From NCBI GenBank assembly GCA_947576945.1, contig CANPTH010000026.1:1-55917 (forward strand): 55,917 nt of DNA, read 5' to 3'. The position numbers and the translations under genes were made by a program. The notes under the pieces are model-generated. The model was not told where the DNA came from, ran no database searches, and saw only the letters and a list, made by a program, of their open reading frames with translations. The stretch is from an uncultured Lachnospiraceae bacterium (GTDB lineage: Bacteria; Bacillota; Clostridia; Lachnospirales; Lachnospiraceae). This document shows positions 20,392 through 30,345 of the stretch, in pieces; within the stretch, counting starts at the first letter, position 1; every line of letters starts with the position of its first letter.

Positions 20392-21243
20392 TTACGATTT
20401 CCGGATCATAGAAAACTGCGTGGAATTCAAAAATTCCTCTATCATATGTTTTATGTGTTCGGGCGATTGATAGGCTTTACAGAATGAAAAATCCTGTGAT
20501 AAATCGTCAATATCCTCCATGGCATTTTTCACATCAATCATAGTCTGCACAGGAATTTCTGCGGCTGTCATATAATCCAGCTGTAACGGGTTTAGCCTGT
20601 GACTCTGTATTGCATAATTTACTCTGTCTTTGCATTTACATCTCCCGCCGCCATATTCTCCGCAGTAGTCTCCTAAAAAGTCTGCCATCTTTTTGCGTAT
20701 TCGGGAAAGCCGGCGGCGATACGCTTCCGGAGTTATTTCCAGGATATCTCCCGCTATTCGGCTGTCGACCTTAAACATTGTACCCAATATAAAAATACAT
20801 CTGCTCTCCATATCAAGGCACTGCAGCATCACATTCGTACAGGACATTTTCAGTTCTTCTGCCAGAATATTCTTTTCCACATTTTGAGTTAAGTCCGGCA
20901 CATCCTGTATTTTCCCGTTTTCGATATCATTTCCATAATATTCAAAACTCAACGGATAATGGCTGAACATATGCTTTTTGTAATTTTTCAGGTGATTTGC
21001 CGCAATACGGAATACCCATGTTGTAAATGAACTGTCACCCCTGAAAGAAGAAAGATGCGTGATCATTTTCAATAGAATATCCTGCGTGGCATCTTCTGCA
21101 TCTGCAAATGTCCCAAGCATTCGCAGAGATAAATTGAATACCATATCCTGCACACCTGTAATAAGCGTTTCAAGGGCGTCTTTATCCCCTGATACAGCTT
21201 TGTCAACTAAATCCTGTAATTCATCATTTGTTTTTTTATTCAT
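20392..21243 (-). CDS. Sigma-70 family RNA polymerase sigma factor with C-terminal extension
   Basis: 283 residues from the ATG at 21243, with GGAGGGA five bases upstream. Region 2 has MVFNLSLRMLG, DAEDATQDILLKMI and SFTTWVFRIAANHLKN; region 4 has ESRCIFILGTMF and SRIAGDILEITPEAYRRRLSRIRKKM. A further 95 residues follow, starting with a CKCKDRVNYAI segment and containing no known domain; such tails in ECF-like factors often control activity. The frame is open upstream to 21333 only because it reads through a structured repeat element, so that extension is not coding. A DUF2461 gene follows. Confidence 0.85.
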   Translation of the reverse strand: MNKKTNDELQDLVDKAVSGDKDALETLITGVQDMVFNLSLRMLGTFADAEDATQDILLKMITHLSSFRGDSSFTTWVFRIAANHLKNYKKHMFSHYPLSFEYYGNDIENGKIQDVPDLTQNVEKNILAEELKMSCTNVMLQCLDMESRCIFILGTMFKVDSRIAGDILEITPEAYRRRLSRIRKKMADFLGDYCGEYGGGRCKCKDRVNYAIQSHRLNPLQLDYMTAAEIPVQTMIDVKNAMEDIDDLSQDFSFCKAYQSPEHIKHMIEEFLNSTQFSMIRKS

Positions 21244-21248
21244 TCTTC

Positions 21249-21458
21249 CCTCCATGCCGAAGCCGCTTTTTGCGAAGGCTGCGAGCCAAATCTCAAATTT
21301 GGCTCTGCAATCCCGAGTTTGTGGCTCCGGCACAAACTCGCAGTTGAAAAATCAGCACATCAGTGTGATTTTTCAACCTTTCCTCCATGCCGAAGCCGCT
21401 TTTTTTGTTAAACCAAATCGCTCATCAGAGAATTCATTCAACCTTTGTTCCCTGAGGA
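21249..21458 (-). repeat. Structured element at the sigma factor start: full copy plus a partial tandem copy
   Basis: A 23-bp direct repeat (cctccatgccgaagccgctt plus ttt) at 21249-21271 and 21382-21404, period 133 bp, brackets three hairpins. On the minus strand these are TTGAAAAATCA/TGATTTTTCAA, CGAGTTTGTG/CACAAACTCG and GAGCCAAAT/ATTTGGCTC. Each direct repeat includes a ribosome site (GGAGG) followed by a start-like codon; the downstream one serves the sigma gene. Between 21405 and 21440 lies a decayed further copy of the first hairpin, then a degenerate copy of the 26-bp repeat (21442-21458). The same architecture occurs at aroQ. Confidence 0.75.
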
Positions 21459-21637
21459 TACCTCCTATTTAATTAGACAATGCTCATCTTCTTTTGTGAC
21501 AGAAAAAATCAGCCATTTCCTCCATATCAAAAAAGATTCTGCCTGAATCCACCACCTATAACAAGAATAACACCTTGCCATCTGATTAACAAGCGGCTTT
21601 GCCGCTGCTGTTTTCCCTTTGATTTTTTAATCTGCTC

Positions 21638-29723: not shown

Positions 29724-30179
29724 TCACGAAATATCCGTGTCGGAACCGGCATGGGACTCAAGCACATGATCAATGGCCAGCAGATATCCGTCCAGCCCTT
29801 TCCCGTAAATCTGTCGGTCGCACGCCGGAGCTGTCACCGATATCCTCCGGAACTCCTCCCGTTCCATGATATTAGAGATATGAATCTCTACTTTGGGTAC
29901 TGTAATACTCGCCAGCGCATCCCGGATTGCATAGCTGTAATGCGTATAAGCCCCCGGGTTAATCACAATCCCTTCCGTACCGTCAAAATAAGAATCCTGA
30001 ATCCGGTCAATAATCGCTCCTTCGTGGTTACTCTGAAACACCTCGATGGTACAGTTCTCTCTCTGTCCCTTCTCTGCAATCATATGCAGGAGATCATCGT
30101 AGCTTCTCGTACCATAAACGCCCTTTTCCCGAATCCCAAGAAAATTAATGTTGGGTCCGTTGATTACCAATATTTTCAT
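29724..30179 (-). CDS. aroQ: Type II 3-dehydroquinate dehydratase
   Basis: 151 residues from the ATG at 30179 (GGAGGTAAGG upstream). Family motifs are NGPNINFLGIREKGVYG with the catalytic Tyr, QSNHEGAIID, NPGAYTHYSYAIRDAL and EIHISNIMEREEFRRIS with the catalytic His, ending in YGKGLDGY. It converts 3-dehydroquinate to 3-dehydroshikimate in chorismate synthesis. It is last in an aroE-aroK-aroQ run. Its ribosome binding site is part of a 35-bp sequence repeated 136 bases upstream at the end of aroK, the flank of a structured element. Confidence 0.95.
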   Translation of the reverse strand: MKILVINGPNINFLGIREKGVYGTRSYDDLLHMIAEKGQRENCTIEVFQSNHEGAIIDRIQDSYFDGTEGIVINPGAYTHYSYAIRDALASITVPKVEIHISNIMEREEFRRISVTAPACDRQIYGKGLDGYLLAIDHVLESHAGSDTDIS

Positions 30180-30345
30180 CCTTACCTCCATTCCGAAGCG
30201 CAAAGCGCTGAGGACGCGAACAGAATTTTAGATTCTGTTCTGCGATCAATAGAATTTGTGACGCTTCGGCACAAATTCTTGGTTGAATAAATTGCTCATC
30301 AGAGAATTTATTCATCCTTACCTCCATTCCGAAGCGCAAAGCGCT
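30175..30345 (-). repeat. Structured element between aroK and aroQ with duplicated ribosome site
   Basis: A perfect 35-bp direct repeat at 30175-30209 and 30311-30345 (period 136) includes the last codons of aroK, GGAGG, and the start codon context of aroQ. Between the copies are three hairpins on the minus strand: TGAATAAATT/AATTTATTCA, AGAATTTGTG/CACAAATTCT and GAACAGAAT/ATTCTGTTC. Loops and linkers (CTGATG, CCGAAGC, GCAGA) are shared with the element at 21.25-21.40 kb while the stems differ in a pairing-preserving way. Confidence 0.8.

Follow-up and report, generated by a model that had tools for sequence, protein, structure and literature searches.

A dispersed, folded leader element with its own Shine-Dalgarno sequence, probably mobile and targeted to start codons, in Lachnospiraceae

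The window analyzed here is the whole 55,917-nt contig CANPTH010000026.1 (assembly GCA_947576945.1) of an uncultured Lachnospiraceae bacterium, whose genome (94% complete) is referred to as G000. The gene of a 283-residue sigma factor in this window is preceded on the minus strand by a 132-nt unit, and a second copy of the unit stands before a dehydroquinase II gene (Table 1). The order at the sigma locus, read along the minus strand, is promoter-like block, native AGGAGG, decayed unit, full unit, and ATG, and the unit itself consists of AAGG, three successive hairpins and the tail GCTTCGGCATGGAGG. The first-pass annotation, which was made from the letters alone, had described a direct repeat, three hairpins and another direct repeat in front of this gene, and this architecture was found as described. 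The stems of the two copies in the window also differed in both arms, as it had claimed, with CGAG/CTCG versus AGAA/TTCT in hairpin 2, GAGCC/GGCTC versus GAACA/TGTTC in hairpin 3, and CAC/GTG versus CTC/GAG in hairpin 1. The decayed further unit that it placed just upstream is real.

Table 1. Coordinates of the features at the sigma factor locus and at the second element copy in the window.
Feature	Position	Strand	Evidence
Full 132-nt element copy, three hairpins and tail	21249..21380	-	Covariance-model match, 145.5 bits; the copy is a member of the model's own alignment A1
Hairpin 1, loop CTGATG, bulged C	21342..21378	-	Double changes in 10/16 pairs, A1
Hairpin 2, loop 21330-21324 = CCGGAGC	21314..21340	-	Double changes in 4/10 pairs (A1) and 7/10 pairs (A2)
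Hairpin 3	21281..21308	-	Double changes in 6/14 pairs, A1
Tail segment GCTTCGG, pseudoknot partner of the hairpin-2 loop	21257..21263	-	96.6% of cells paired; double changes in 3/8 pairs; swap test
Element-borne Shine-Dalgarno GGAGG	21249..21253	-	Sequence; ATG 5 nt downstream
Decayed upstream unit with a hairpin-1 relic and a tail but without hairpins 2 and 3	21382..21445	-	Sequence, repeat search
Direct-repeat tail preceding the full unit	21396-21382	-	Sequence
Native sigma-gene AGGAGG, no longer close to the ATG	21461..21466	-	GGAGG near the start in 77/80 orthologous loci
Conserved promoter-like block TGTCACA...TTGTCTAATT, ahead of the insertion	21467..21501	-	Present in 77/80 orthologous loci; putative promoter
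Sigma factor gene, 283 residues, ATG 21243-21241	20392..21243	-	Sigma70_r2
Second copy of the element, from another subfamily	30185..30319	-	Sequence, profile match
Direct-repeat tail upstream of the second copy	30321..30335	-	
Dehydroquinase II gene behind the second copy	29724..30179	-	DHquinase_II

Two side observations concern the sigma gene. The TGTCACA...TTGTCTAATT block before it is possibly an autoregulated promoter, and a longest-frame ORF caller would begin the gene within the element (GTG, 313 aa, 20392-21333) instead of at the ATG that gives 283 aa.

The exact tail occurred 154 times in this genome, compared with 0 occurrences of the reversed control pattern, and at least 49 BLAST matches to the element were obtained (40 of 148 first-look candidates were scored). 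These counts indicated that the element is present far above chance. A covariance model was built from 20 diverse copies (alignment A1). At E <= 1e-3 it matched 68 of the 77 species in the genus; the best match was 1e-15 or better in 44 of the 77, and the matches counted per genome were limited to 44. Across the host family, 38 of 299 sampled Lachnospiraceae genomes, that is 37 of 298 genera, were matched at 1e-6, while the sole match in a phylum sample of 398, at 1e-8 and under strict filters, was the window's own genome. The sigma-gene orthologs were mostly found in Lachnospiraceae or genera of that family. Seven genomes held at least 40 element matches (G000, G002, G006, G009, G014, G059, and G090). 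Phage and plasmid collections queried with one element copy gave no match, and neither did viral contigs queried with one exact hairpin-1 pattern. The 132-nt unit belongs to a dispersed element of high copy number and patchy distribution.

The suggestion that units had been added in tandem also held. At L135:2484-2918, three identical 146-nt tandem units and a partial one lie upstream of the promoter-like block of an orthologous sigma gene, and the identity of the three units indicates that this amplification is very recent.

The alignment of many copies, which the first-pass annotation had proposed as a test of covariation, was carried out on two sets. Alignment A1 (MAFFT) comprised 20 copies, namely the copy at the sigma gene and 19 of 22 non-redundant copies, three with extra hairpin sequence being left out. 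Double-sided changes occurred in 23 of its 48 pairs, and 94.2% of cells were paired, a level reached by 0 of 500 shuffles; when the partners were slid by 1-3 columns, pairing fell to 31-44%. Alignment A2 contained 24 copies from 22 other genomes of other genera and showed double-sided changes in 27 of 40 pairs with 96.2% of cells paired, although it was aligned by the covariance model and is therefore biased towards it. A loss of covariation with many copies, which the first-pass annotation had named as refuting its proposal, was not observed. The controls consisted of shuffles and slid partners, which correct only partly for the relatedness of the copies.

The loop of hairpin 2 was moreover complementary to the 3' tail, and both sides differed between copies (CCGGAGCGT with ACGCTCCGG, CGCAGGCAC with GTGCCTGCG, and TTTCTGAGCGA with TCGCTCAGAAA). 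In a swap test, the 23 distinct loop/tail pairs formed 8.4 bp on average and 0 of 5000 swaps were as good; the same was true of 99 distinct pairs of the genus set (0/5000). Two copies, L041 and L294, yielded no clear hairpin-2 loop. The stem covariation and the loop-tail pairing together indicate that selection acts on a fold of three hairpins and a pseudoknot, the latter lying a few bases ahead of the Shine-Dalgarno sequence. The earlier proposal of selection on a folded single strand is thus strongly supported by comparison of the copies: the element appears to be kept folded as RNA or ssDNA, with three hairpins and a pseudoknot. The counts of G-T versus A-C pairs were mixed (12 vs 20 in the A1 stems, 10 vs 2 in A2, and 11 vs 2 in the pseudoknot) and gave no clear pointer to one or the other. 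A possible frame for a short peptide in the 5' part is open in some copies and stopped early in others. L007 (contig 84) and similar copies had either a longer hairpin 3 or a further short hairpin between the first two.

Orthologous loci were then compared. Of 80 orthologous sigma loci, 77 had the promoter-like block and 77 a GGAGG shortly ahead of the start. None of the 80, two of which had little upstream sequence, showed an element tail at 60 nt or less from the start. At mutS, a gene named by eye, only the window genome's locus among 30 carried the element. Ortholog starts were obtained for 10 of 15 further element-bearing genes, and for these 10 genes in four near relatives 24 of 30 starts, read by eye, were empty and 6 of 30 carried the element or a remnant. 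At L018 the element splits a stretch that runs uninterrupted in a relative. At galE, again identified by eye, a 40-nt 5'-shortened copy stands 5 nt before the ATG, and its flanks are adjacent in four relatives. The absence of the element from orthologs at the same starts indicates that the unit is an insertion. Two bases beside the 3' junction at galE differ from those of the relatives, and the spacer before the ATG of the sigma gene is unlike that of the orthologs, so that the exact 3' junction can be placed only approximately. A reading of the listed sites with a 3' end revealed no consistent target-site duplication; short matches were seen at uvrA and some other sites. With its position between the conserved promoter-like block and the sigma gene, the element would be transcribed as the leader of this gene.

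The distance from the element to the start codon was measured on 142 copies with a 3' end, which were reduced to 127 sites by the removal of inner tandem units and of copies with less than 60 nt downstream. An ATG stood exactly 5 nt after the terminal GGAGG in 103 of the 127 sites, and ATG, GTG or TTG in 106. Among ordinary GGAGG genes (ORFs of at least 150 aa, n = 84), a set that excludes the sigma gene, which had dominated a control of 171 genes, the spacing was 5 nt in 5 of 84 and mostly 6-9 nt. An ORF of at least 50 aa began within +2 to +13 in 111 of the 127 element sites. Where a downstream ORF of 50 aa was missing, an ATG was still found at +5 in 14 of 16 sites; three of these 14 stand before a long opposite-strand ORF (gene identity unchecked), and at several, judged by eye, a better start with its own Shine-Dalgarno sequence lies further on. 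The ATG therefore appears to be part of the target, and not only the result of selection. The bases between GGAGG and ATG depended on the subfamily. When the ATG was at +5, positions +2 and +3 were AA in 48 of 49 sites of subfamily A, and in the 15 sites of subfamily C position +2 was T in 13 and position +3 was A in 11; these are the dinucleotides that open the units (AAGGTTG and TAGTGTG). The six bases before single units were G/A-rich (96 sites), as expected of the old Shine-Dalgarno sequence. The proteins encoded behind the copies, judged from their translations by eye, looked mixed and included mutS, uvrA, transporters, glycosyltransferases, and others.

Many copies were shortened. A further 40 sites were selected by their tail, and an ATG was present at +5 in 31 of them. 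These sites, like some of the other copies analyzed, came from the top of the lists and were not a random sample. No trace of hairpin 1 was found in 26 of 39 tail sites, L348 being excluded because it is cut by the contig end. A cruder label gave 29 of 40 as 5'-truncated, but among these were L348 and at least two sites, L340 and L364, that may keep relics of hairpin 1. As these sites were selected by the tail, 3' truncation could not appear among them. One 3'-truncated copy was found, a hairpin-1-only site on contig 99, where no transposase was evident by eye. At L020, the relatives G009 and G091 hold the tail alone where this genome has tail-body-tail, and at L004, L020, L027, and L327 the element is more complete in this genome than in a relative, which keeps tail-type remnants only. 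The short and solo tails in relatives at these four loci keep the decay of full copies as a live alternative to 5' truncation, and the 5'-shortened copies could accordingly be decayed full copies of which selection retained only the Shine-Dalgarno sequence.

Separately, nearly the same internal junction, TTTGTG|NNGCTTCGG, was seen in the short forms L335, L341, L352, L353, and L359 of this genome and L183 and L189 of G009. The 5' arm of hairpin 2 is fused there straight to the loop-pairing tail, as if the sequence between had been lost in a structure-guided jump.

We consider the element to be, with good probability, a mobile, folded, start-codon-targeted leader that carries its own Shine-Dalgarno sequence. 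It is likely a non-autonomous mobile element spread by a putative helper enzyme. The element lands at the translation start and gives the gene a new ribosome-binding site, which would let the target gene survive the insertion. The imported Shine-Dalgarno sequence, by keeping the gene alive, would also explain why tails persist after the body decays, and the repeated tails may let an array grow or shrink between a solo tail, one unit, and tandem units. To our knowledge, the known small bacterial repeats are not aimed at the translation start. If this is confirmed, start codons would belong to the target of a mobile element that has a strongly covarying pseudoknot and occurs in dozens of genera of a single family of gut bacteria.

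Part of this pattern might arise without any targeting. Near-random insertion, after which selection retains only the copies with a well-spaced Shine-Dalgarno sequence and start codon, would account for the ORFs that begin shortly after most copies, since a gene that lost its native spacing would otherwise fall silent. We regard this as unlikely, because the 5-nt spacing is rare among ordinary genes, the sites without an ORF mostly keep the ATG at +5, even before opposite-strand ORFs, and the bases at +2 and +3 are specific to the subfamily. A cis-regulatory, riboswitch-like leader that hides or exposes the Shine-Dalgarno sequence to control a regulon would fit the pseudoknot, which is conserved and lies a short way upstream of GGAGG, and in the minimum-energy fold of the copy at the sigma gene the tail is paired with the arm and loop of hairpin 2. 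But the products behind the copies look unrelated and not like one pathway, orthologs do without the element, and in 121 folded copies the exposure of the Shine-Dalgarno sequence did not differ (median unpaired 0.35 vs 0.34), which makes this role quite improbable. It is more doubtful still that the element is a member of the Rfam small-RNA family TD-2 read from the opposite strand. TD-2 matched the sigma locus on the + strand, opposite to the element, with 41.4 bits (E 5e-5 for 401 bases) and more weakly, with 26.4 bits, on the element's own strand, and 7 of 9 further loci matched, each on the strand opposite to the element. Every match, however, lay below the gathering score of 48.7 (the best had 43.3 bits), and 16 loci from other genera gave no match at E 0.05.

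The start-codon targeting and the mobility are better supported than either route by which the element may spread. One route, which we prefer although its odds are well below even, is RNA copying in the style of target-primed reverse transcription, in which a nick close before the ATG would receive an RNA copy, beginning with its 3' end. This would account for a 3' junction that is fixed, for the 5' truncations and for the lack of terminal inverted repeats, and incomplete reverse transcription would leave forms like the 40-nt copy at galE. The other is a DNA-moving enzyme, such as an HUH transposase, an IS110-type bridge-RNA recombinase or another site-specific recombinase, with the hairpins as its recognition structure and GGAGG-N-AA-NN-ATG as the attachment site; this is possible too, at about the same odds. 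The 5' end of the unit (AAGGTTG, TAGTGTG) resembles the target (AANNATG, TANNATG), the junction dinucleotide at both ends is linked to the subfamily, as a recombination core would be, and in tandem arrays each unit begins right at the end of the previous one. This genome also has two IS110 (DEDD transposase) matches over the cut-off, without a link to the element. On the other hand, the frequent 5' loss with intact 3' ends is not expected of a DNA enzyme. The Y1/HUH transposase that the first-pass annotation had suggested did not bear out: there were 0 Y1 matches in this genome, and six of the seven genomes with at least 40 element matches had none, G090 having four, while G023 with 16 Y1 matches has 5 element matches. 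Y1 was present in 30 of 77 genus genomes and did not parallel the copy number of the element.

SINE-type retroposons of eukaryotes are non-coding, have a constant 3' end, 5'-truncated copies and no terminal inverted repeats, and spread by target-primed reverse transcription. The element resembles them in being non-coding and in lacking terminal inverted repeats, and its 5'-shortened copies with a constant 3' end would be a further likeness if they are not decayed full copies. It differs in having a bacterial host and no clear target duplication, and its helper is hypothetical. The full reading as a "bacterial SINE", that is a non-coding, pseudoknotted RNA parasite which is reverse-transcribed before start codons and replaces the ribosome-binding sites of genes, is rather unlikely in our view. 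If it were true, many genes in a gut bacterial family would be translated from parasite-supplied Shine-Dalgarno sequences. If confirmed, the element would bear on how the ATG is found, on whether bacteria carry retroposons other than introns, and on the rewiring of the translation of many unrelated genes by a parasite.

REP/BIME, BOX and Correia elements and MITEs are short, high-copy and palindromic, are patchy among relatives, and occur in internally deleted forms. The element shares all of these traits, but it differs from them in its covarying pseudoknot, its own Shine-Dalgarno sequence, the mostly fixed 5-nt distance to the ATG, and the frequent loss of its 5' part, and its ends, AAGGTTG and GCATGGAGG, are not the inverted repeats by which a MITE is recognized. 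A derivative of REP/RAYT or IS200/IS605 was rejected on the Y1 results given above. IS200/IS605 and IS110 elements have hairpin ends or a structured RNA and insert in one orientation at a short target motif. The element is likewise structured and inserted in one orientation at a short motif; unlike them, it comes without a Y1 match in this genome, and the loci read held neither a coding copy with the element's ends nor any other longer, gene-bearing version.

Rfam TD-2 (RF03162, clan CL00124) was the sole Rfam match taken seriously. It shares with the element three hairpins, the hairpin-2 arms GAGUUU/AAACUC and similar hairpin-1 arms, and resembles the young copies, but it is filed as an sRNA, and its match here falls short of the gathering score and lies on the other strand. 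The mobile or repeat candidates of PMC11109978, such as MRSC-65-2, are structured and covarying, have dozens of copies per genome and are thought to be selfish, according to the parts of that paper available to us. In those parts, MRSC-65-2 is described as a single long stem, unlike the three-hairpin element, and start-codon targeting is not mentioned for the candidates. No description of the element was recognized in the literature covered, which included parts of PMC11109978 and PMC8040213 and lay mostly outside subscription journals. Near element loci in other genera, a TwoAYGGAY RNA and a c-di-GMP-I riboswitch were found (L310:2588-2752 and L299:1115-1216), both ordinary.
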